Program-made: the position numbers and the translations under genes
Notes under the pieces: generated by a model
What the model saw: the letters and a program-made list of their open reading frames with translations, nothing else
What the model was told of the DNA's origin: nothing
The model's database searches: none
Part shown: positions 17,452 to 43,388 of the stretch, piece after piece
Numbering within the stretch: the first letter of the stretch is position 1
Layout of the letters: each line of letters begins with the position of its first letter
Assembly (NCBI GenBank): GCA_945902775.1
Contig: CAMDMY010000002.1
Coordinates: forward strand, 1 to 64,000
Length of the DNA stretch: 64,000 bases
Direction: 5' to 3'
Origin: Chryseobacterium gleum
GTDB taxonomy: Bacteria; Bacteroidota; Bacteroidia; Flavobacteriales_D; Crocinitomicaceae

Positions 17452-17886
17452 TTATTTTACTCCCGTGCTACCAAAACCACCTTCTCCTCTGGTTGTATCA
17501 GAAAGTGTTTTAACTTCTAGCCATTGTGCTTGTTCAACTTTCGCGAAAACTAATTGAGCAATACGCTCTCCATTTTCAATAACAAAGTCTTCATTCGAAA
17601 GATTGATTAAAATTACACCTACTTCTCCTCTGTAATCAGCATCGATAGTTCCTGGTGAGTTTAGAACAGTAACTCCTTTTTTCAAAGCCAATCCACTTCT
17701 AGGTCGAACTTGAGCTTCATATCCTTCAGGGATTTCTAAAAATACACCTGTTTTTACAAGTGTTCTTTCTAACGATTTTAGCGTAATTGTTTCAGTTAAA
17801 TTTGCTCTTAAATCAACACCTGCAGAAGCGGTTGTTTCGTATGTTGGCAAAGGATGTTGCGAAGTATTTATAACTTTTATTTGCAT
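17452..17886 (-). CDS. dut: dUTP diphosphatase
   Basis: A 144-residue trimeric-type dUTPase with all five motifs: [10 protein letters not shown] (I), [10 protein letters not shown] (II), [17 protein letters not shown] (III, catalytic Asp), [12 protein letters not shown] (IV), and [10 protein letters not shown] (V). It hydrolyses dUTP to dUMP and pyrophosphate, limiting uracil in DNA. It heads the operon dut / nucleotidyltransferase / TPR / DUF4292 / EnvC-like. A TAACTTTG element lies 26 nt upstream. Just beyond that lies a 21-bp copy of the flippase 3' end, indicating that the flippase was once directly upstream. Confidence 0.97.
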
Positions 17887-17912: not shown

Positions 17913-17920
17913 CAAAGTTA
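17913..17920 (-). promoter_or_regulatory. Candidate -7 promoter element TAACTTTG for dut operon
   Basis: A minus-strand match to TAnnTTTG, 26 nt before the dut ATG. It lies on the dut side of the direct repeat, so it would have stayed with dut after the insertion. Confidence 0.45.
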
Positions 17921-17933
17921 GTAAAAATTATTG

Positions 17934-17954
17934 TGATTTTTAACTCGCTTTTTT
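17934..17954. repeat. 21-bp direct repeat, left copy (att-like)
   Basis: TGATTTTTAACTCGCTTTTTT is identical to 23772-23792. In the right copy this sequence is the flippase stop region (AAA AAA GCG AGT TAA on the minus strand). Homology stops abruptly on both sides. It marks the left edge of the accessory block. Confidence 0.75.
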
Positions 17955-18033
17955 TGACTAAATTATTTTAGCAGTTTTTAGAGGATAAGTTTTGGATTGT
18001 GATTTAGTTTTTGAACTATGCTTTAATTTGGTG

Positions 18034-18393
18034 TTATTTTGAAGTAAGTTGATTTCTTAGAAATAAAACTTCGTTTTTTAAATTCTCAATTTGTTCTTTG
18101 TATGATTCAATAAGTTCATTTGGTAGATTGTTATTAAATGTCCCATTACCAGACATTGAACAGTTATACCAATAATTGGCAGGACTAAAGCTTAATAAAA
18201 AATCTAATTTAACATCTAATTCTGATGCGATTTTTTCAGCACGTTGAATGTCTAGTTTTGTAGCTCCACTTTCAATTTTTTGATAAGCTTGTTGACTTAT
18301 GCCTATTTGAGTAACTAAAGACTCTTGAGAAATACCTTTTAATTCTCTAAAGAAGCGAATTTTGCTTCCTAAATCCATATAAACTTCTTCCAT
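18034..18393 (-). CDS. XRE-family HTH transcriptional regulator
   Basis: A 119-residue protein. Residues about 6-62 form a Cro/C1-type HTH (LGSKIRFFRELKGISQESLVTQIGISQQAYQKIESGATKLDIQRAEKIASELDVKLDFLL), and the C-terminus (about 90-119: NELIESYKEQIENLKNEVLFLRNQLTSK) is a coiled coil for dimerisation. The downstream ATG (MDLGSKIRF) is an alternative start. It is divergent from the T9SS gene at 18506; the gap contains two palindromes 20 bp apart that overlap its own predicted promoter, implying autoregulation and possibly control of the neighbour. Likely cytoplasmic. Confidence 0.85.
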   Translation of the reverse strand: MEEVYMDLGSKIRFFRELKGISQESLVTQIGISQQAYQKIESGATKLDIQRAEKIASELDVKLDFLLSFSPANYWYNCSMSGNGTFNNNLPNELIESYKEQIENLKNEVLFLRNQLTSK

Positions 18394-18403
18394 ATTTTTA
18401 AGG

Positions 18404-18436
18404 TTGTAAATTACAAGTTTGGGTTGTTATTTACAA
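18404..18436. promoter_or_regulatory. Twin palindromic operators, probable XRE binding sites
   Basis: TTGTAAATTACAA (18404-18416) is a perfect palindrome around a central A. TTGTTATTTACAA (18424-18436) is a near-perfect second copy. Their centres are 20 bp apart, about two helical turns, so both face the same side of DNA. The second sits just downstream of the predicted XRE -7 element, over the expected transcription start. Confidence 0.65.
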
Positions 18437-18437
18437 C

Positions 18438-18445
18438 CAAAGGTA
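18438..18445 (-). promoter_or_regulatory. Candidate -7 promoter element TACCTTTG for the XRE gene
   Basis: A minus-strand match to TAnnTTTG, immediately upstream of the operator pair; transcription would begin inside the second operator. Confidence 0.5.
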
Positions 18446-18470
18446 TAGAATCTTTCTGATTTCACTGTAA

Positions 18471-18478
18471 TACTTTTG
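18471..18478 (+). promoter_or_regulatory. Candidate -7 promoter element TACTTTTG for the T9SS gene at 18506
   Basis: A match to TAnnTTTG 27 nt before the ATG. It is 34 bp from the nearer operator, so XRE control of this direction is possible but not implied as strongly. Confidence 0.45.
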
Positions 18479-18505
18479 TGATTAAATAAACAAATAACTA
18501 TATAA

Positions 18506-19351
18506 ATGAAAAAAATTACCTTTTTCGTTATGTCTTGTATTGCATTACAAGTTCATAGCCAAAGTCAAATGATTGAAGAGCATCATGCGACGATTGAAGA
18601 CACTATTATCAGAATATCTAAACATCTACCTGTTTGGGATTATACAATGTTAGATTTTGATAACTACCCTAATACATTGGATGTTGATTTGAAACAAATT
18701 CAAGATGTTTCTCAAATTTACCAAGCAAATAATTTTACTCCTGAAAATGATACAGTATATGGAGATTTGCCGATTCTTAATTTAACCGAAGATGGAGTTA
18801 ATTTCAACATTATTGGAAAGTACAGTTTTACAAAAGGTCCTAGAGGAAATTTATTATTAGCAAACGATACATTACAAAATTTAGAAAAAATCAATTACAC
18901 TGAAACATATTTTCTAATGTATTTAAGTGATACTCTTGCATCTTACGAAAACACCTATTTTTCATTTTTTGATTTTAATTCCAAAAAATTAATTTTTGAA
19001 ATTTTTGAAAAAAATAAGTCTCTAAAAGGGGATTTGAGTTGGATATACTATGGTATTTCAAATTGTGCCGTTTGTTTAAATAAAGGAAATCAAACGAATA
19101 TCAATATTAATTGTTCTCCAAATCCTTCGTATGATAATTCTATTATTTCTTTTGATTTACCAATTGGTACAGATATTACAATTTCTTTAACTAATCAAGA
19201 TAACACAGTTAATAAAACACTTTACACTGGAAAAGCAAATAACGGACATAATGAATATCAATTTAGTACAAAGAGTTATACTACTGGATCTTATACTTTA
19301 ACAGTGATTACTTCAAATGGAAAATACACAACCTCTTTAATCATTTTATAA
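18506..19351 (+). CDS. Secreted protein with T9SS type A sorting domain
   Basis: A 281-residue protein with a signal peptide (MKKITFFVMSCIALQVHSQ) and no recognisable catalytic domain in the middle. The C-terminal 80 residues are a type A T9SS signal: CSPNPSYDNSIISFDLPIGTDITISLTNQDN, then GHNEYQFSTKSYTTGSYTLTVITSNGKYTTSLIIL. It is therefore exported to the periplasm by Sec and then to the cell surface by type IX secretion. The central region is Asp/Asn/Thr-rich. It is the first gene of a plus-strand run of T9SS cargo, 7 nt before the next gene. Function unknown. Confidence 0.8.
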   Translation: MKKITFFVMSCIALQVHSQSQMIEEHHATIEDTIIRISKHLPVWDYTMLDFDNYPNTLDVDLKQIQDVSQIYQANNFTPENDTVYGDLPILNLTEDGVNFNIIGKYSFTKGPRGNLLLANDTLQNLEKINYTETYFLMYLSDTLASYENTYFSFFDFNSKKLIFEIFEKNKSLKGDLSWIYYGISNCAVCLNKGNQTNININCSPNPSYDNSIISFDLPIGTDITISLTNQDNTVNKTLYTGKANNGHNEYQFSTKSYTTGSYTLTVITSNGKYTTSLIIL

Positions 19352-19358
19352 ATTCTGT

Positions 19359-21377
19359 ATGAAAAATAGTATTATCTTATCAATATTTTTGAGTATTATA
19401 ATCTCATTTAAACTATACTCTCAAGCAAATGGAGGTTTTGAGTATGGTAACTTATCAAATTGGCTTGTTTATACGGGAGCTTCAACTAATCCCCAAAATA
19501 ATTCAACTTTTGTGAATCAAGTTGATCCTTTAAAATTTGGAATTCATCAAAATACAGGACCAAGTTCTAATTATAATCCAGGAGCAGTACCTATGATTGT
19601 TAATGGACAAGATTATTATGGTGGATTTGATATCCCTAGTGAAGGCAAATATTGTTTACGAATAGGACATAATTTAAACAATGGACAAGCTGAAGCAGAA
19701 TTAGTGAAATTTACATTTTTAGTAACACAATCTAATAAAAATTTTATGTTTCGTTATGCTTTGGTATTTGATGATCCAACACATTCTCCTGAAGAGAAGC
19801 CAGATGCATCTATGTATATTCTACCTGGAAATAAGATTACACCAACTAGTTTAGCTGACCTTCTATTATATAATAAAACATTAAAACACATAGTTTCAGA
19901 TATTAAAGATCCATTTTTTAATATTTCAAGAAAAAATCCAACTGTTGCATACAAACCATGGCAATGTGCTTCGTATGATTTATCAGCTTATGTAGGCAAG
20001 ACGGTATCGTTTTGTATGAGGGTGCGTAGATGTACATTGGGAGGTCATTTTGGATATGCTTATTTAGATGGATTAAGTGTACCTATGGTTGCTAAAGCAT
20101 CTTTTACAATACCTAAATTTAAATTTTGTGCAGAAGAACCTATTGTTATAAACCCTTCACCATCAACAGGAGAAGATTCTTATTTTGTTGAAGTTAGAGA
20201 AGAAGGTTCAAATAATCCTCCTATTAATGAATGGTTTACAAATCAACCAGCTCCTTCAGCTTTTGATTTAAAAGCATTTATGTTGAAATATGGAAAAACA
20301 TTTGAGTGCGGTAAAAGTTATTGGATAAAAGTAGCGGTGGCTAGTGAATGTGCTCCATGGAATGAAACTTCTTCAAAAATTCAAATTGTATGTCCATCAA
20401 TAAATGCAGGTCCTGATCTTAATTTCTGTTGTGGTGTAAGTTCATCTGTAAAAATAGGTGAAGTTGCTCAATCAGGTTATACTTATTCTTGGACTTCTAT
20501 CCCTTCAGGTTTTGTAAGCAGTATTGCAAAACCTACTATCTATCCATCAAATAGTAGTAGCCGATCTTATTTTGTAACAAAAAAAGATGCTTTTGGTTGT
20601 ACAGCAAAAGATGAAGTTATAGTAAGGATAGAACCAAAATTTACACTCTCATTAACAAAATTGCCGTATAAAGAATGTGATAATTCTACAAGAGTAAGTG
20701 CAACATTGTCACAAGTGGGTTGTATTGAAAATCCTGAATTTTCAAAATTACATCCACAAACAGATGCATCTTTAATAAATTGGTATTTTATAAGTAATGG
20801 ATCTACTGTAAAGACATATGTTGGTAAAGGGGAGAATATTGTGGCTCCGAATATTGCTGATGGAGTTTTATATGCAGAATACCAAACAAGTTGTTCAAGT
20901 ACTATTCTTAGAGCATCGATGAATATTACATATAATCCTGTTACGAAAAATCGCAATTTGATAGCTAGTAATTCATTTTCACCAAATGGAGATAAAATAA
21001 ATGATGTTTTTAGAATACAAGAAACAGGACCGTTAGCACCTGTGAATATTGGTGATGGACCTGCTTATGACGCATCAGATTTTAAATTGAGATTTTGGAA
21101 TAGATGGGGTGAAAATTATTTAACTGTAGATAAAAATTCCATCGGTAGAACAGGTGCTCTCATGCAAGGTGATATTCAATGGAATGGAAAGGTTGGAGGA
21201 GTTGACCAACAAGTTGGTGTATATACTTATACTTTAGAGATGAAATATTGTGGTTCTACTGAGTTTGTTCAAGTTCAAGCACCTAATAGTAGAAAAGATA
21301 TATGCGTAAGATGGGCTTGGATAGTTTGTATTCAACGAATCAGTGGCTGGGCATCATCTATTAATTTATTAAGATAA
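19359..21377 (+). CDS. Large secreted protein with T9SS type B (gliding-motility-associated) C-terminal domain
   Basis: A 672-residue protein with a signal peptide (MKNSIILSIFLSIIISFKLYSQ). An N-terminal region (GGFEYGNLSNWLVYTGAST... RYALVFDDPTHSPEEKPDASMYIL... YAYLDGLSV) resembles a carbohydrate-binding jelly-roll. It is followed by Ig/PKD-like stretches (NAGPDLNFCCG... YTYSWTSIPSGF) and a type B CTD: NSFSPNGDKINDVFRIQE, FKLRFWNRWGENYL, IQWNGKVGG, VGVYTYTLEMKYC, ending SSINLLR. The segment just before the end (KDICVRWAWIVCIQRISGWAS) is unusual but reads through. It is probably a surface adhesin. Confidence 0.85.
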   Translation: MKNSIILSIFLSIIISFKLYSQANGGFEYGNLSNWLVYTGASTNPQNNSTFVNQVDPLKFGIHQNTGPSSNYNPGAVPMIVNGQDYYGGFDIPSEGKYCLRIGHNLNNGQAEAELVKFTFLVTQSNKNFMFRYALVFDDPTHSPEEKPDASMYILPGNKITPTSLADLLLYNKTLKHIVSDIKDPFFNISRKNPTVAYKPWQCASYDLSAYVGKTVSFCMRVRRCTLGGHFGYAYLDGLSVPMVAKASFTIPKFKFCAEEPIVINPSPSTGEDSYFVEVREEGSNNPPINEWFTNQPAPSAFDLKAFMLKYGKTFECGKSYWIKVAVASECAPWNETSSKIQIVCPSINAGPDLNFCCGVSSSVKIGEVAQSGYTYSWTSIPSGFVSSIAKPTIYPSNSSSRSYFVTKKDAFGCTAKDEVIVRIEPKFTLSLTKLPYKECDNSTRVSATLSQVGCIENPEFSKLHPQTDASLINWYFISNGSTVKTYVGKGENIVAPNIADGVLYAEYQTSCSSTILRASMNITYNPVTKNRNLIASNSFSPNGDKINDVFRIQETGPLAPVNIGDGPAYDASDFKLRFWNRWGENYLTVDKNSIGRTGALMQGDIQWNGKVGGVDQQVGVYTYTLEMKYCGSTEFVQVQAPNSRKDICVRWAWIVCIQRISGWASSINLLR

Positions 21378-21380
21378 ATG

Positions 21381-21388
21381 TATCTTTG
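21381..21388 (+). promoter_or_regulatory. Candidate -7 promoter element TATCTTTG, 5 nt before the ATG at 21394
   Basis: A perfect TAnnTTTG match that would start transcription at or next to the ATG (leaderless mRNA). It lies just after the stop of the preceding gene. Confidence 0.4.
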
Positions 21389-21393
21389 TGTCT

Positions 21394-23328
21394 ATGAATA
21401 AGTTTTTAATTATATATCTATTTATTTCATTGAACACGTTTTCTCAAAAAGAAACAACATGGTGGCCAATTGGTCATCATGTTTTTCTTGATTTCACGTC
21501 CTCTATACCAACTCACAATTACAATTCAAATTTAGATATATATGAGTCTTCAGCTAGTATTTCTGACAGTAAAGGGAATTTATTGTTTTATACAGATGGA
21601 GAAGTTGTTTTTGGTAGAGATAGTTTGCCTTTACTAAATGGTTTAAACATTAATCCTTCGAATACAATTAATTTTTCAACTACTCAAGGTTCACTTTTCT
21701 TAAAAAAGCCTGGTAATAATTCATTGTATTATTTGTTTGCACTACCAGCAAGTTTTAATGGTGTTGGAAATTATTTATTCGAAGCTTTTACGCTTGACAC
21801 TTTACAAAATAATAATAAAGGTGATATCATCAATCGAATCGAAGTGGTAGAAGATTTTTTCACAGAAAAAATGAATGCTACGAAACATTGTGATAGTAAA
21901 AATATTTGGCTCATTTTAGCCCGATTTAAAAGACTTGAAATACCTATTAATGACGATATTCAATTTGACAGAAAAGAGATTGAGTTTTTAAGTTATTTAA
22001 TTACAGAAAATGGATTGCAAATAGAACCTATAAAATCTTCAATTTCAATGGCTTTTGATTTCCCATCTCTTGGGCAGTTGAAATTTAATAATAAAGGAAA
22101 TGAATTAGCTTGTGCCGATGCTGAAGGTATTTCCTTATTTCATTTTGATAAGGAAAATGGTAAGGTCAACTTGAAGCAACGTATTCTTCTACCGTTAGAA
22201 AATGGATACGGGATTGAATTTTCTCCAAATGATGAATTTCTTTATATAAATGAAAAGCAATTTCATTTTGCTTCTAAAACCTTAATTCCCTTATTAGATT
22301 ATAATTGTCCCTCTCAATTGCAACGAGGGTTAGATGGGAAAATTTATAAATATAATTTTCCTAAAAATGAAATATTGATAAGTGCAAATAATGATTGGGT
22401 TTTATTTGGAAATGGAGATAGTTCATTTAAATTTACTCAAATAAAATCACCTGATTCTTTTGGTATGGCTTGTCAATATGATACTTCATTTATTCATGAA
22501 TATCGTCCCAATTATTTTCAAAATGTGCCTGGCCTTCCTAATTTTCCATCTTTTTATTTTAATCATTCTAAAAGTGAGTTTGCTTATTCAGGCGGGTGTG
22601 AAAAAGATTCAACCCGTTTTTATCTTTTAAACTATTCAAATTCAATTGATTCTGTGAAATGGTTATTTGAAAATGAAACAAATATTGGAGATAGTGTTAA
22701 GCATTATTTCTCAAAATCAGGAACTTATCAAGTTGGGTGCATAACTTTTTCTAATGGCATTTCTGATACAACTTTTCAATGTATATCTATATGTGGTAAA
22801 GGAGATACGAATTTACCAAAAATGATCAATTTGTGCGAGTCAAACGCTGGAATAGTTAATGGTATGAATACATGTAGTCTTACTTATAAATGGAGTAGTG
22901 GAGATACAACTTCGGCAATTAAAATAACAAAAGCAGGAGATTATATATTAACAACTAGTAATGGTTGTGGTATTTTTCAAGATACAGTTCATGCATATTT
23001 TGATTGTACAAAAATTCAAGATACAATAAATAAAATACCAAATGTTTTTTCACCTAATAATGATGGAGTAAATGATGAATTTTCAATTGTGCTTGAAAAT
23101 GCAAAATCTTTCAATTATTTTATTGTTAATAGATGGGGGAATACAATCATTTCAAATTCAATTGATGTTCAACAGCAATCAATTAATAATAAGTTCGTTT
23201 TATGGAATGGGAAAAATCCAAAAACGGAAGAATTATGCACGGATGGAGTGTATTTTTATAGAATAGAAATTGTAAAATCTGATAATTCTATTCAAGTAAA
23301 AAATGGCTTTTTACATTTAATTAATTAA
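21394..23328 (+). CDS. Secreted propeller/PKD protein with T9SS type B C-terminal domain
   Basis: The start is moved from the track's GTG (21388) to the ATG at 21394, giving MNKFLIIYLFISLNTFSQ, a clean signal peptide; about 645 residues. The N-terminal two thirds (WWPIGHHVFLDFTSSIP, SASISDSKGNLLFYTDGEVVFGRD, LGQLKFNNKGNELACADAEGISLFHFD, GIEFSPNDEFLYINE) read as a beta-propeller. It is followed by a PKD-like segment (DSVKWLFENETNIGDSVKHYFSKSGTYQVGCITFSNG), then the type B CTD: PNVFSPNNDGVNDEFSI, FIVNRWGNTII, VLWNGKNP, DGVYFYRIEI, GFLHLIN. A surface-displayed, adhesin-like protein, 16 nt after the previous gene. Confidence 0.85.
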   Translation: MNKFLIIYLFISLNTFSQKETTWWPIGHHVFLDFTSSIPTHNYNSNLDIYESSASISDSKGNLLFYTDGEVVFGRDSLPLLNGLNINPSNTINFSTTQGSLFLKKPGNNSLYYLFALPASFNGVGNYLFEAFTLDTLQNNNKGDIINRIEVVEDFFTEKMNATKHCDSKNIWLILARFKRLEIPINDDIQFDRKEIEFLSYLITENGLQIEPIKSSISMAFDFPSLGQLKFNNKGNELACADAEGISLFHFDKENGKVNLKQRILLPLENGYGIEFSPNDEFLYINEKQFHFASKTLIPLLDYNCPSQLQRGLDGKIYKYNFPKNEILISANNDWVLFGNGDSSFKFTQIKSPDSFGMACQYDTSFIHEYRPNYFQNVPGLPNFPSFYFNHSKSEFAYSGGCEKDSTRFYLLNYSNSIDSVKWLFENETNIGDSVKHYFSKSGTYQVGCITFSNGISDTTFQCISICGKGDTNLPKMINLCESNAGIVNGMNTCSLTYKWSSGDTTSAIKITKAGDYILTTSNGCGIFQDTVHAYFDCTKIQDTINKIPNVFSPNNDGVNDEFSIVLENAKSFNYFIVNRWGNTIISNSIDVQQQSINNKFVLWNGKNPKTEELCTDGVYFYRIEIVKSDNSIQVKNGFLHLIN

Positions 23329-23430
23329 AAATCAAATAATATGAAATAAGCCTTGAGAGAAAAACGTTACAATTACTGATGAATTTCAAGATGGCGATTC
23401 CATATGACATTTAAAAACAATAAAATACAT

Positions 23431-23676
23431 ATGAAAACAACAATTTTATCAATTACTTTATTAACCTTATTTGTTAGTTGCAAGAAAACCTATAATTGCG
23501 AATGTAAAGGCTCTTCAACTCAATCTTTAATTTTTACTGAACACAAATCCGTTACTGAAACATCAAAGAAAAAAGCAGAAGAAAGTTGTGTCAAAAAGGT
23601 ATTAGATTATGAAAGTGAGTATAATAAATATTATACAGAAAAAGGGGTTGTCATAATTAATTGTGATCTTCAATGA
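23431..23676 (+). CDS. Small cysteine-containing lipoprotein
   Basis: The start is moved from 23404 to the ATG at 23431, giving MKTTILSITLLTLFVSC with a lipobox Cys17; about 81 residues. The mature part starts KKTYNCECKGSSTQSLIFTEHKSVTETSKKKAEESC and has further Cys in NCEC, AEESC and INCD. No known domain is recognised. It is the last gene of the accessory block and is followed by a perfect hairpin with a T-run. Small lipoproteins of this type are common in Bacteroidota; function unknown. Confidence 0.65.
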   Translation: MKTTILSITLLTLFVSCKKTYNCECKGSSTQSLIFTEHKSVTETSKKKAEESCVKKVLDYESEYNKYYTEKGVVIINCDLQ

Positions 23677-23739
23677 TTTTAATGGTTTGAATTAATAATA
23701 ACTCTCTAAAAACCTACATTATTAAGTTAGTGCGTTCAA

Positions 23740-23779
23740 ATCAATATCTCGATAGCTGTATTACGAGATATTGATTTTT
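23740..23779 (+). terminator. Hairpin terminator at right edge of the accessory block
   Basis: ATCAATATCTCG and CGAGATATTGAT form a perfect 12-bp stem around a 12-nt loop, followed by TTTTT. It ends transcription of the small lipoprotein gene and lies next to the flippase stop codon. Its right arm runs into the 21-bp direct repeat. Confidence 0.8.
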
Positions 23780-23792
23780 AACTCGCTTTTTT
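23772..23792. repeat. 21-bp direct repeat, right copy (att-like, inside flippase 3' end)
   Basis: TGATTTTTAACTCGCTTTTTT, identical to 17934-17954. It contains the flippase stop codon and its last four sense codons. Confidence 0.75.
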
Positions 23793-25238
23793 CAAAGGTT
23801 TTTCAATGAACCAAATTAATCCTAAATACAGTAAAATTAAACTGTTGTTCACACTGATTTGGGCAATCGAACCTGTTTCAAATTCAAAAGTTCCCGCAAG
23901 GAAATACAATCCGATTGCTGAAAATAAATACAAGAAAAATTTACGTAAATTGTATTTTATAGGGTAATAGATCTGACCTAAAATATACGACACTACCATT
24001 TGGAAAGCGTAGACAATCATAGTTGCCCAAGCACTTGCCATATATCCAAATTTAGGAATAAATACCCAGTTAATTGTAATGGTTAAAAAGGCGCCTGAAA
24101 TGGCAATATAAGCACCAAATTTTGTTTGATTACTCAATTTATACCAAATACTTTGATTGAAATAGACACCTAAAAACACATTCGCTAACAGTAAAATTGG
24201 AACTACTTTTAGTCCAATCCAATACGCTTTATTAGGGATAAAAATCACTTTTATTAAATCTACATTTAAAGAAACCAATAAGAAAACTGTACAAACAGCT
24301 GCTACAAAATAATTCATTACTTTGCTGTAAATCTTGTTCTTATCTTCATTTCTTAACTGTGAGAAAAAGAACGGTTCTGCGGCATATCGATAGGCTTGAA
24401 TCAAAATGGTGACCAACATCGATAGTTTGTAACAAGCGCTGTAAATTCCTACTTCGGCTTTTGCTTTTATAAGTGATGCTGCTGTTTGTCCATCGTATAA
24501 GAGATGAACAATTAAAATTCTATCAATTGTTTCATTAACTATTCCGGCTAAACCTCCAATCATAAGTGGAGTTGCATAAATCAACATCTCTTTTGCAATT
24601 TGAGGATTGAATTTGTAGTTGATATTAATGAAATCTTTATATAAAAAAACAGGTTTAACTAATGATGAAAAAAGATTGGCTGAAAGGATAAAAATAACCC
24701 CTTCTTCTGGTCGTTCATTATTGAAAAAGAACAACATTAAAATCAAGTTTAAACCGATATTGACTGCTATAGAAGTTGTTTGAATTGTAGCAAATTTGGC
24801 CGCCTTTTCTTCCGCCCTTAATTTGGCAAGAGGTAGCGCAGAAACAGCATCAATGCAGACAATAGCCCCTAATAAAATGATAAATTCATTGTGTTCGGAA
24901 AATAATAGCGCATCTGCAATGTTTTGATTGAAAGCTAATAGCAGTAAGAAAAATAGAATATTGATTCCTATAACCGTTAAAAAACTATTTGCAAATACAG
25001 CATCTTTGTCGACCTTGTTTTGTAAAAATCGAAAGAAAGCTGTCTCCATTCCGAAACTTAATAGCACCACTAAAAAGGCTACCCAAGCATATAATTCAGA
25101 TACTACACCGTAATCTGAGGTATGTTTGAATACACCAATATAAAGTGGAACCAAAAGGAAATTTAACAACCTACCAACAATACTAGGTAAGCCATAAATT
25201 GCAGTTTGACCCAATAATTTTTTTATCGGGTTCGACAT
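23778..25238 (-). CDS. Polysaccharide / lipopolysaccharide flippase (MOP superfamily)
   Basis: A 486-residue polytopic membrane protein starting MSNPIKKLLGQTAIYGLPSIVGRLLNFLLVPLYIGVFKHTSDYGVVSELYAWVAFL, with about 12-14 helices and an ETAFFRF motif. It is the flavobacterial lipopolysaccharide exporter type that I expect to sit directly upstream of dut; here 5.8 kb separates them. Its last 15 nt including the stop are repeated near dut (17934-17954). It overlaps the enoyl-CoA hydratase stop by one nt. It is predicted to flip lipid-linked sugar units. Confidence 0.88.
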   Translation of the reverse strand: MSNPIKKLLGQTAIYGLPSIVGRLLNFLLVPLYIGVFKHTSDYGVVSELYAWVAFLVVLLSFGMETAFFRFLQNKVDKDAVFANSFLTVIGINILFFLLLLAFNQNIADALLFSEHNEFIILLGAIVCIDAVSALPLAKLRAEEKAAKFATIQTTSIAVNIGLNLILMLFFFNNERPEEGVIFILSANLFSSLVKPVFLYKDFININYKFNPQIAKEMLIYATPLMIGGLAGIVNETIDRILIVHLLYDGQTAASLIKAKAEVGIYSACYKLSMLVTILIQAYRYAAEPFFFSQLRNEDKNKIYSKVMNYFVAAVCTVFLLVSLNVDLIKVIFIPNKAYWIGLKVVPILLLANVFLGVYFNQSIWYKLSNQTKFGAYIAISGAFLTITINWVFIPKFGYMASAWATMIVYAFQMVVSYILGQIYYPIKYNLRKFFLYLFSAIGLYFLAGTFEFETGSIAQISVNNSLILLYLGLIWFIEKPLKKAS

Positions 25239-38780: not shown

Positions 38781-41700
38781 TTGAAACATTTTGCTACTAT
38801 AGTTTCTATTTTGTTTTTGTGTTCCATTTTTGGACAAGAGACTGGTATGTGGATGCATCCAAATAAAGGGCAATGGGCTGAACCTATATTGTATAAAGTT
38901 GAATTGGATTATGGAGAAATGTTTATTGAGAAAAATCAATTTACTTATGCTCTAAATGACTTTAAACAGAAAATGTCGCATCAGCACGAAAACAAGTCTA
39001 AATCAGCTGTTGAATCTTCAAAAATTATTGAATCTCATATAATTAAATCAACCTTTAAAAATTCTTCTTGGGCAGGAGTAAAAAATGAAAAATCAATTTC
39101 TTCTTTTTACAGAAATTATTTTCAAGGAAATGACCCACTGAAATGGAAATCAAAGTTAAATAGTTTTAAATTGATTGAGTTTGTTGATTTCTATCCGAAT
39201 ATAGACCTTGTTTTAGATGGGAATAATGAAAAATTTAAATACTCCTTTATTGTTTATCCAAATACGAATCCAGCTCAAATTCAATATGAAATTACAGGTG
39301 CAAATTCAGTTAAGATAGATGAAAAGGGGAATTTAATTATAGAAAATCGATTTGGAAATATTATTGAAGAAAAACCAATTGCTTGGACTTATTCTAAAAC
39401 TGGGAAAAAAGATGTGGAAGTAAATTTTAGTTTGAATGAAAACACAGTTTCATTTCAATTTCCTGAAGGGTTTAATCAAGAAGACACGCTTATTATTGAT
39501 CCAAGTTTATTGTTTTCTACCTTTTCTGGTTCTACTGCTGATAACTGGGGGATGACAGCAACACCAGATACACAAGGAAATTTATTGGCTGGAGGGATTG
39601 TTTTTAATGATGGGGGAGTTTATCCAGTTACTGTCGGCGCTTTTAATACAACTATAAATGGGGGAGATTCTTATGTGTTGGGTTCTTTAATTCAAGGGTT
39701 TGACATTGCGATTTCTAAATTCAATCCAACGGGAACACAACTTTTGTATGCGACATATTTAGGTGGTGCAGCGAATGAAGCTCCTCATAGTTTAGTAACA
39801 AATGGAAATGATGATTTATTTATAATGGGAGTAACCGCTTCTACTAATTTTCCAACTTCTTCTAGTGCTTTTGATAATTCATTTAATGGTGGTCCAGAGA
39901 TTCTTGAGAATGAATTGTTTTATAGAGGAACAGATATTTTTGTTACAAAATTAAGTCAAGATGGTTCTCAATTATTGGGTTCAACTTATATCGGAGGATC
40001 AGGTACAGATGGGGTAAATATTGGAGATTTAAATTATAATTATGGTGACCCGTTTAGAGGTGAAATTATTGAAGGTGCTGATGGATATGTTTATGTTTCT
40101 AGTACTACTCAATCTTCAGATTTCCCGACTGTAAACGCTTCACAGTCCTCATTAAAAGGAAGTCAAGATGCCGTAGTGTTTAAATTGAACAGCGACTTAT
40201 CTTCCATTGGTTGGTCATCTTATTTTGGCGGTTCAGGATTAGAAACAGGTAATTCTATTCAAAAATCTTCAAATGGTAGTTTGTACGTAGCAGGTGGAAC
40301 AACTTCAACTGATTTGCCTTTTTTAATAGGAAATGACCTTTCTTATAACGGAGGTATAGCAGATGGCTATGTAATGCGTTTAGCAAATTCAAGTGGCAAT
40401 ATACTTCAGGGTACTTACATGGGCTTAAACGAATATGATCAAGCTTATTTTGTGCAATTAGATTTAAATAATGATGTATATGTATATGGTCAAACAGAAT
40501 CTAGCTGGCCAATAACTGCAGGAAAATATGGTAATCCTAATTCAGGTCAATTTATTAGAAGGTATAATCAATCTTTAACTTCTATTGTTTGGACAACAAT
40601 GGTCGGAGCAGGAACGGGCTATCCTGAAATTTCACCGACTGCTTTTTTAGTTTCAAACTGTAGTGATATTTATATTTCTGGTTGGGGCGGTCAGGTTAAT
40701 AATCAAAATAGTCAATATGCTCATAATAGTAACACTTCAGGTTTTCCTATAACTGGAGATGCTTTTCAGAGTTTAACAAATGGAGATAATTTTTATATTG
40801 CAGTTTTAGGAAATGACGCTTCAACATTGAAATATGCCACCTTTATGGGAGGAGTTAATGGAAGTTATAACCATGTGGATGGAGGTACAAGTCGTTTTGA
40901 TAAATCTGGAAGAATTTACCATGCTGTCTGCGGGGGATGTGGTAGAAATTTAAATGGGTTTACAACTACTCCTGGAGTATTTTCACCTCAAAATCAAGGT
41001 TCTAATTGTAATTTGGCCGCTTTTAAATTTGAACTAAATAGTTATGCTCCAATTATTGGTTCGGCTGACAGTGTAATTTGTTTACCTGATTCTGTTATTT
41101 TTAAGAATTCAGTTTCTAACGGAAATTCATTTCTTTGGGATTTTGGTGATGGAACAATTTCAAAATCTTTAAATCCGAAACATTATTATTCCATTCCAGG
41201 GAAGTATATTATTAAATTATTAGTAAAGGATACGGTTAATTGTTTTGTGAGTGATTCATTTTATTTTGATGTTCGCGTTGTTCAGTTTTTACCAAGTGTA
41301 GTTATCCCACTTAATCCGGTTTGTGCTGGGAATTCGTTTACTCTTAATGCTTCAGGTGGTTTAAATTATAGTTGGACTCCGACAAATGTATTAAGTAACC
41401 CATTGATTGCCAATCCTATTGCTAAAATATATTCTACAACAAATTTCCAAGTTGTTATTTCAGATGTATGTGGTTCACAAACTTTGAATGTGAATGTGGT
41501 TGTTTTGCCTGTAATCACTAGTCTAACGAATGATACGACTATTTGTTTAGGCCAGTCTGTTCAACTTAAAGCGACAGGTGGTGTTTCATATCAATGGTCA
41601 CCCTCTACTTTTGAACTTAGTAGCTTAAATAGTGTTTCTCCAATTTGCACTCCTTCTCAAACCAGGAAATATTATGTCAATATTACTTCTTTAAATGGCT

Positions 41701-43388
41701 GTATAACAAAGGATTCGGTAATTGTTTCTGTACATCAAAGTGCATTAAAACCGATTGTAGTCGATTCAATTATTTGTATTCAAGATTCTTTAAAGTTGGT
41801 AAATTCAAATGCTTCAAGTGTTAAATTTGATTGGAGTTTTGGTGATGGAATAACATCTAAATTATTTTTACCGACTCATTATTATACTAATCCGGGAACG
41901 TATCCTTTGAAAGTTGTTTTTACAGATACGGTTTATTGTTTTGTCAAAGATTCTATTTTAAAGAATATTAAAGTCAATCAATATAATGGCGGAATTTTAA
42001 CACCCCCTCAGTCAATTTGTCCCAATACTTATTTTCAATTAGAAGCTTTTGGAGGAACTAGTTATTTATGGTCGCCTGCTAACTTGTTAGATAATTCAAT
42101 AATTGCAAAACCAATTGCTACAATTAATTCAGCAACAACATTTACTGTTTTAATTTCAGATGAATGTGGTAGTGGAAATTATACGCTTCCTTTAAGTGTT
42201 TATAGTAATCCACATCAAATCTCATCGGATACTTCTATTTGTATTGGAGGCAATGCTCAACTTTTTGCAATCGGTGGTTCAAGCTATAGTTGGACACCAA
42301 CAAACTCACTGAATAACCCTTTGCTTTCAAATCCAGTTGCAACTCCATTGGTAACGACAAAATATTTTGTAAATATTATTACAGGAAATAATTGTAGTAT
42401 TCATGATTCTACGGTTGTGAAAGTTTTTAATTTTCCACCAATTCCGATTTTAAAAGATTCTGTAAAAACATGCAGATATTCTTCGGTTCAGCTTATTGCC
42501 GATGGAGCTGAGCGTTACAAGTGGTCTCCAAATCAATATATAAATTCAATTATAAATGATACGGTAATTGTGAATCCTTTAAATAGTATAACTTACTATT
42601 GTGATTTTATTAATGCATGCGGTAAAAATGAGGATAGTATTTATATTGAGGTATTAATACCTCAAATTCTACCTGCAAAAGACACTTCTATTTGTCCTAA
42701 TAACTCAGCTAAATTATATGCAAATGGTGGTATAAAATATGATTGGTATTTTAATACAGACTTTATAGGTACTACCATGTTGGATAGTTTTGTGGTTTTC
42801 CCGACAGTAACATCAAATTATAGTGTAGTTGGAACAGATAAAAATAATTGTAAGGATACCGCTTCGATGAATGTAATTTTATATGTCCCAGTTGAAATTC
42901 GAGCTTGCCCAACAATATATGCAATACAAGGAGATATAGTTGAATTATCTACTATAAATAGTCCTGTAGGCATCTATACTTGGTCACCAAATACTTACTT
43001 ATCTTGTGATGTATGTCTCAAACCTTTTGCTAATCCTGATATGGATTTTACTTATAAAGTTAATTTGATAGATTCAAATGGGTGCGTATCATCTGATAAA
43101 GTTCAAATTATATACGATGGATTAATTTTTGTTCCAAATACCTTCACGCCGGATGCACCAATTAATAATATTTTTATTCCCAAAGGTGGAAATATTAGAT
43201 CGTTTGAAATATCAATTTTTGATAGATGGGGTAGTATAGTTTTTACTTCAAATTCCATCAATCAAGGATGGGACGGAACATTTAAAGGAGTAAAATGTCA
43301 AGTTGGTACCTATACATGGAAAATTTTATATGGAGATTACAACCATACTAAAAAAGAACTTGTAGGGCATATTAACTTGTTAAGATAA
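38781..43388 (+). CDS. 1535-residue T9SS surface protein: DUF7948, SBBP propeller, PKD/Ig repeats, type B CTD
   Basis: The start is TTG (38781), needed for the signal peptide MKHFATIVSILFLCSIFGQ; no in-frame ATG lies between it and residue 22 (METGMWM-like). N-terminal domain (about 20-245: MWMHPNKGQWAEPILYKVELDYGEMFIEKN... FYPNIDLVLDG... DTLIIDPSLLFSTFSGS) is of the DUF7948 kind. It is followed by a beta-propeller of SBBP repeats (about 245-750: YLGGAANEAPHSL, YFGGSGLETGNS). PKD domains sit near 780-830 and 1010-1065 (WDFGDGT, WSFGDG). Six Ig-like repeats of the form GG-SY-WSP lie between about 860 and 1320. The type B CTD is at about 1450-1535 (NTFTPDAPINNIFIP... FDRWGSIVFTS... WDGTFKG... 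VGTYTWKI... GHINLLR). Probably an adhesin or gliding-associated protein. Confidence 0.9.
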   Translation: MKHFATIVSILFLCSIFGQETGMWMHPNKGQWAEPILYKVELDYGEMFIEKNQFTYALNDFKQKMSHQHENKSKSAVESSKIIESHIIKSTFKNSSWAGVKNEKSISSFYRNYFQGNDPLKWKSKLNSFKLIEFVDFYPNIDLVLDGNNEKFKYSFIVYPNTNPAQIQYEITGANSVKIDEKGNLIIENRFGNIIEEKPIAWTYSKTGKKDVEVNFSLNENTVSFQFPEGFNQEDTLIIDPSLLFSTFSGSTADNWGMTATPDTQGNLLAGGIVFNDGGVYPVTVGAFNTTINGGDSYVLGSLIQGFDIAISKFNPTGTQLLYATYLGGAANEAPHSLVTNGNDDLFIMGVTASTNFPTSSSAFDNSFNGGPEILENELFYRGTDIFVTKLSQDGSQLLGSTYIGGSGTDGVNIGDLNYNYGDPFRGEIIEGADGYVYVSSTTQSSDFPTVNASQSSLKGSQDAVVFKLNSDLSSIGWSSYFGGSGLETGNSIQKSSNGSLYVAGGTTSTDLPFLIGNDLSYNGGIADGYVMRLANSSGNILQGTYMGLNEYDQAYFVQLDLNNDVYVYGQTESSWPITAGKYGNPNSGQFIRRYNQSLTSIVWTTMVGAGTGYPEISPTAFLVSNCSDIYISGWGGQVNNQNSQYAHNSNTSGFPITGDAFQSLTNGDNFYIAVLGNDASTLKYATFMGGVNGSYNHVDGGTSRFDKSGRIYHAVCGGCGRNLNGFTTTPGVFSPQNQGSNCNLAAFKFELNSYAPIIGSADSVICLPDSVIFKNSVSNGNSFLWDFGDGTISKSLNPKHYYSIPGKYIIKLLVKDTVNCFVSDSFYFDVRVVQFLPSVVIPLNPVCAGNSFTLNASGGLNYSWTPTNVLSNPLIANPIAKIYSTTNFQVVISDVCGSQTLNVNVVVLPVITSLTNDTTICLGQSVQLKATGGVSYQWSPSTFELSSLNSVSPICTPSQTRKYYVNITSLNGCITKDSVIVSVHQSALKPIVVDSIICIQDSLKLVNSNASSVKFDWSFGDGITSKLFLPTHYYTNPGTYPLKVVFTDTVYCFVKDSILKNIKVNQYNGGILTPPQSICPNTYFQLEAFGGTSYLWSPANLLDNSIIAKPIATINSATTFTVLISDECGSGNYTLPLSVYSNPHQISSDTSICIGGNAQLFAIGGSSYSWTPTNSLNNPLLSNPVATPLVTTKYFVNIITGNNCSIHDSTVVKVFNFPPIPILKDSVKTCRYSSVQLIADGAERYKWSPNQYINSIINDTVIVNPLNSITYYCDFINACGKNEDSIYIEVLIPQILPAKDTSICPNNSAKLYANGGIKYDWYFNTDFIGTTMLDSFVVFPTVTSNYSVVGTDKNNCKDTASMNVILYVPVEIRACPTIYAIQGDIVELSTINSPVGIYTWSPNTYLSCDVCLKPFANPDMDFTYKVNLIDSNGCVSSDKVQIIYDGLIFVPNTFTPDAPINNIFIPKGGNIRSFEISIFDRWGSIVFTSNSINQGWDGTFKGVKCQVGTYTWKILYGDYNHTKKELVGHINLLR

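Follow-up and report, generated by a model that had tools for sequence, protein, structure and literature searches.

A repeat-flanked block of regulator and type IX secretion cargo genes between flippase and dut in a Crocinitomicaceae genome: a probable single insertion

The block and its boundaries

A 64,000-nucleotide stretch of contig CAMDMY010000002.1, from the assembly GCA_945902775.1 (listed as Chryseobacterium gleum; family Crocinitomicaceae), was analyzed and is referred to here as the window. It carries a 5.8-kb block of genes, positions 17934 to 23792, between two host genes, dut and a flippase gene. The block encodes a small XRE-family regulator, three proteins with features of type IX secretion system (T9SS) export (cargo 1, 2, and 3), and a small lipoprotein-like open reading frame (ORF). 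A copy of a 21-bp direct repeat lies at each end. The features, from left to right, are:

17452 to 17886, minus strand: host dut (NCBIfam dut), the left-hand boundary gene
17913 to 17920, minus strand: TAACTTTG, dut promoter-like element, conserved in relatives of the genus and intact beside the left repeat
17934 to 17954, plus strand: TGATTTTTAACTCGCTTTTTT, left repeat copy, exact, just upstream of the dut promoter
18034 to 18393, minus strand: XRE-family regulator, 119 aa (Pfam HTH_3, 6.8e-13), with a C-terminal SFSPANYWYNC..SGN motif and a coil
18403 to 18437, unstranded: GTTGTAAATTACAAG and GTTGTTATTTACAAC, tandem operator-like sites of the type GTTGTNNNNNACAAC in the divergent promoter region
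18506 to 19351, plus strand: cargo 1, 281 aa, with a signal peptide and a T9SS type A tail (Por_Secre_tail TIGR04183, at the cut-off)
19359 to 21377, plus strand: cargo 2, 672 aa, T9SS type B (CHU_C, 2.1e-07)
21394 to 23328, plus strand: cargo 3, ~644 aa, T9SS type B (CHU_C, 1.6e-14)
23431 to 23676, plus strand: small lipoprotein-like ORF, 81 aa, outside the conserved module
23738 to 23777, unstranded: hairpin with a T run behind it, overlapping the right repeat and probably acting as terminator for both block and flippase
23772 to 23792, plus strand: TGATTTTTAACTCGCTTTTTT, right repeat copy, exact; reads on the minus strand as AAAAAAGCGAGTTAA, the end of the flippase, followed by AAATCA
23778 to 25238, minus strand: host flippase, polysaccharide synthase family (Pfam PF01943), the right-hand boundary gene

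A preliminary description of this DNA had listed an XRE regulator, three T9SS cargo proteins, and a small lipoprotein, with four genes on the opposite strand. Domain scans and ORFs agree with this: four of the five block genes run opposite to flippase and dut, and only the type A call is borderline. The regulator matches HTH_3 with 48.9 bits (curated Pfam cut-off, 23); its match to the RstR model NF041951, 40.2 bits, is below the cut-off of 80. CHU_C is above the Pfam cut-off in both cargo 2 and cargo 3. The type A tail of cargo 1 is exactly at the NCBIfam cut-off (23.0 vs 23) and below that of Pfam. Signal peptides in the block were called by inspection and a crude rule only. Structure models of cargo 2 and cargo 3, built from two-sequence alignments, have a mean pLDDT of ~40 and ~39, respectively.

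The preliminary description had also reported a perfect 21-bp direct repeat, taken from the flippase stop region, with homology ending sharply on both sides. All of this holds. The copies are exact, and the sequence outside the 21 bp differs at both junctions. The right copy covers the end codons of the flippase (KKAS-stop) and the next 6 nt. The distance from the left copy to the dut ATG is 47 nt, and this copy adjoins the conserved TAnnTTTG promoter-like element. The post-stop bases of the right copy, AGTTAAAA-TCA, are similar to those in two genomes of the same genus, G003 and G001, and the homologous flippase stop in G003 matches with 5 mismatches, suggesting that these bases are native. 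The hairpin at the right end has a 14-pair stem (-20.3 kcal/mol over the folded 71 nt; z -4.5). Its end lies inside the right repeat; the inserted segment thus ends in a probable terminator that could also serve the flippase.

The length of the repeat far exceeds what chance produces. It is the longest exact direct repeat among those listed for the window, where 0.04 matches to the 21-mer with up to 3 mismatches are expected by chance, and in the 3.09-Mb genome the 21-mer with up to 2 mismatches is found at these two sites only. When ~20,000 random pairs of segments from the window were compared (160 x 250 nt), the longest common exact word was 17 nt. The repeat is AT-rich with a T run, and its right copy overlaps the hairpin terminator, as would be expected if the identity were accidental or reflected a common terminator motif. 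Against the random comparisons, the presence of just two copies genome-wide, and the lack of a hairpin arm at the left copy, such an origin has a negligible probability.

The flippase-dut junction in relatives

The junction was compared in 11 genomes of the same genus besides the window genome. In nine of them (G001-G006, G008, G009, and G011) the flippase is directly upstream of dut with nothing between. The block is therefore an insertion in the window lineage, as the preliminary description had proposed on the premise that, in flavobacteria, a flippase of this kind normally lies directly upstream of dut. The ~50-nt gap that it expected after removal of the block was computed as 53 nt, from the flippase stop to the dut ATG. 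Neither neighbor was damaged: the final codons and stop of the flippase are still present, as is the promoter of dut.

The remaining two genomes differ. The G010 junction has a 1.3-kb insert with a di-haem cytochrome c peroxidase-like gene (L036:1920-2942; named from its sequence) and no flanking repeat. A rearrangement has broken up the junction of G007, the closest species (L031:6624-11940 and L089:4065-8700). The flippase there precedes a 289-aa gene and the ftsZ cluster, and dut precedes a 910-aa T9SS-like protein and radA (gene names by inspection).

A further proposal, that the site is a new kind of exchangeable surface-protein slot, is not supported. No relative has the same cargo, or any cargo bounded by the 21-mer, at flippase-dut. 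Among the relatives' loci examined there is neither an empty site with one 21-bp copy nor a case of the same 21 bp flanking different cargo; the 21-mer has no match in them, the best having 4-7 mismatches anywhere. The interrupted junctions of G010 (1.3 kb), G015 (3.2 kb), G016 (2.1 kb), and G017 (2.5 kb) carry unrelated genes, with common direct words of at most 9-10 nt, and without common cargo or repeats among them the slot idea was rejected. Nor does flippase-dut stand out: the next operon junction, between ech and a 179-aa gene, has been interrupted with equal ease in G018 and G015. The 21-bp repeat looks like the footprint of one insertion, not an exchangeable slot.

The module in Fluviicola and the origin of the block

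A survey of 240 genomes of the family found cargo 2 in only three, with no other member of the window's genus among them. The full-length homologues, 43-44% identical, are in G089, taken as Fluviicola taffensis (also Crocinitomicaceae), and G062, taken as Fluviicola sp. Ast373_bin2. The whole module, an XRE gene divergent from cargo 1, cargo 2, and cargo 3, is found only in the window genome and F. taffensis, with order and orientation kept; in the latter it adjoins clpP/clpX. In Ast373_bin2 the neighbors of the three cargo genes are rimO and a PorP/SprF-like gene, and two close XREs are on another contig. A cargo 1 homologue occupies the same place in both Fluviicola genomes. Cargo 3 has a 43% identical full-length homologue in Ast373_bin2 and another homologue in F. 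taffensis. The window XRE shares 65% identity with its divergent counterpart in the F. taffensis module and 78% with an XRE of G004. The lipoprotein-like ORF is absent from both Fluviicola modules and has only weak matches elsewhere. Since the Fluviicola copies are at unrelated sites and neither site has a flanking direct repeat, the repeat does not belong to the element itself. Cargo 2 had no match among phages, plasmids, or viral contigs; for the XRE, plasmids gave no match and viral contigs a single weak one, over 39 residues.

Three side observations concern these relatives. The PorP/SprF-like gene of Ast373_bin2 (L127:1141-2037) is directly behind cargo 3 and is absent from the window block; PorP/SprF-like proteins often partner type B cargo. 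The G004 XRE (L118:188-532, G004:C434) has neither cargo nor an operator region, another ORF overlaps its start, and it is possibly a remnant. At a contig edge in Ast373_bin2 (L138:450-1443, G062:C30), two near-identical tandem XREs, each with operator-like repeats, are divergent from a secreted protein.

The block probably arrived by horizontal transfer as an accessory operon that brought its own local regulator, and was inserted a single time in the lineage, between flippase and dut, most likely without a dedicated enzyme. Its core module would consist of the XRE regulator, a divergent promoter with the tandem GTTGTNNNNNACAAC operator-like repeat, and three T9SS-exported proteins. What appeared to be a repeat-bounded slot would then be a clear example of a surface-protein operon that travels and regulates itself: the site is empty in sister genomes, and two Fluviicola genomes, including that of a cultured type strain, contain related copies.

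Four points weigh against this explanation: i) the empty junctions of the relatives examined are longer than the predicted 53 nt (77 nt in G003); ii) with its junction rearranged, the closest species, G007, cannot show the ancestral state; iii) the GC content at third codon positions in the block, 0.14-0.18, bears no clear mark of foreign origin, and its sequence composition likewise gives no clear foreign signal; and iv) the exact operator pattern is no commoner genome-wide than a reversed control (4 palindromic sites vs 7), leaving conservation and tandem placement as the support for an operator.

One alternative is that the block is ancestral and was lost in relatives by deletion between the repeats. 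Recombination between short direct repeats does delete segments, and in other species ~10-18% of the small variable segments have flanking repeats (PMC2884548). Independent precise losses would, however, be needed in nine genomes of the genus, and the cargo, absent from all other genus members, is found elsewhere in two Fluviicola genomes. We regard this history as highly improbable. An assembly effect, in which an extrachromosomal circle or a strain variant with the 21-mer was merged into the draft chromosome, is somewhat less remote though still improbable. The window genome is a draft of 168 contigs with an estimated contamination of 4%, and 21 is a common small k-mer size in assembly. A merge through the repeat, on the other hand, requires a real 21-mer on both molecules, the codon composition of the block is host-like, and the module is from the same bacterial family.

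The most serious rival is a decayed site-specific element resembling a cis-mobilizable element (CIME), the 21-bp copies representing an attL/attR pair at the 3' end of the flippase, with the integrase either lost or acting in trans. In Streptococcus salivarius, CIMEs and decayed integrative and mobilizable elements (IMEs) have attL and attR at gene 3' ends such as rpmG and rpsI (PMC7563491). The block resembles them in its cargo-only content and in having at its borders short, perfect direct repeats derived from the 3' end of a gene that stays intact. It differs in that no related integrase element is found at the site, the target is not conserved, and the repeats are absent at the module's other sites. 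There is no integrase remnant in the block, no integrase among the ORFs read at the interrupted junctions of G007, G010, G015, G016, and G017, and no copy of the 21-mer at any relative's flippase end. The flippase tail is among the most variable parts of the gene (LKKAS, VKAN, SKSVKQKLS, TKAIS, etc.) and would be a poor target for a specific integrase. A decayed element is thus unlikely, though it is the alternative to be taken most seriously. The 10K genomic island of Riemerella anatipestifer is likewise a flavobacterial accessory island bounded by perfect direct repeats; the block has none of its tyrosine integrase, 53-bp repeat, or tRNA-Arg target (PMC6764341).

For the probable single acquisition of the operon, integration would most likely have been a rare recombination without a dedicated enzyme that left the 21-bp target duplication. 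Site-specific elements normally use a conserved gene end. The hypervariable flippase tail, unlike conserved integrase targets, favors a one-off duplication by illegitimate or very short homology integration. Two routes may be considered. In one, the duplication would have arisen through repair of a staggered break or through template switching; in the other, a circular DNA that existed only briefly would have recombined with the flippase end by a single crossover within the ~21 bp of identity. The ORFs and a Pfam scan of the block showed no integrase or transposase, no tRNA was seen at the block, and there are no paired inverted repeats at the block ends among the 25 longest listed. The preliminary description, which had noted the lack of a recombinase, invoked site-specific or homology-mediated insertion at a gene 3' end; insertion stands and a short-homology route is among those favored, and the site-specific reading is disfavored by the missing integrase and the variable tail. 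The block is similar to segments attributed to illegitimate recombination in a survey of E. coli, S. aureus, and S. pyogenes, in being repeat-flanked, lacking a recombinase, and having a repeat below the quoted RecA threshold of ~30 bp (PMC2884548). Those segments are small, whereas this is a 5.8-kb operon with its own regulator.

Operator-like sites and the wider XRE family

The promoters of the F. taffensis XRE and of both Ast373_bin2 XREs also contain GTTGTNNNNNACAAC-type sites, two or three in each, of which some have a mismatch. From the divergent layout and the conserved repeat we infer that the XRE controls the divergent three-gene surface-protein operon. The protein would most likely bind the shared promoter region and repress or autoregulate its own gene together with the operon. 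No general operator was found for the family as a whole: the 54 divergent gaps examined are not enriched in palindromes relative to shuffles, and of the palindrome types only TTGT-N5-ACAA exceeds chance, in 5 loci.

A four-member XRE alignment, searched across the 240 family genomes, gave 79 places, and a readable upstream gene was present at 74 XRE loci. The XRE is divergent from that gene in 64 of the 74, compared with 58 of 286 other genes in the same loci taken as background (Fisher p 3e-26), although some of the short divergent ORFs may not be genes. Size-matched genes are divergent in 8/43. When the XREs were collapsed at 50% identity, 17 of 19 clusters were divergent by majority. The divergent neighbors form 47 unrelated clusters, of which approximately 29 have a signal peptide, as called by a crude hydrophobicity rule. 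Among 59 neighbors scanned with Pfam, 10 have T9SS type A tails and others have barrel or enzyme domains. Secretion is only mildly enriched among divergent partners over background (p 0.02); the strong signal of the survey is divergent XRE pairing with changing partners rather than secretion.

Small HTH_3 regulators with a divergent promoter and a palindromic operator-like repeat recall the RstR/C1-like XRE/Cro regulators. The family described here differs in its partners, which are not phage genes but accessory proteins, exported and otherwise, of many unrelated kinds. A search of the PMC literature found nothing relevant on XRE regulators paired with type IX secretion cargo. Tentatively, the small XREs of Crocinitomicaceae may be portable on/off switches with a divergent operator, each partnered with a different accessory gene or operon, in most cases for exported proteins, with the window block as a recently moved unit; we hold this broader idea to be possible, and less likely than the single acquisition itself. 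Surface proteins in this family would, if it is true, be acquired as switch-plus-cargo units. Should the wider pattern hold, a whole uncharacterised XRE family would gain a predicted job, the control of an adjacent accessory and often exported protein, one that could be tested in a cultured freshwater bacterium.

Seven of the divergent XRE partners belong to one family of ~170-180 aa without a signal peptide (L180:688-1212, L181:3397-3915, L183, L184, L187, L188); FPLNLEFE occurs toward the start of these proteins and YKPxCN usually toward the end. One member was tested with PADLOC and had no match, and no name for the family was found. In the window genome, a paralogous XRE (L119:4621-6835, G000:C20) is divergent from a 583-aa LamG/Ig T9SS type A protein. 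Elsewhere in the window, positions 38781-43388 encode a 1535-aa T9SS type B protein with DUF7948, PKD, and Ig domains, and its gene contains an internal 134-nt repeat of 70% identity (at 41129 and 41825).

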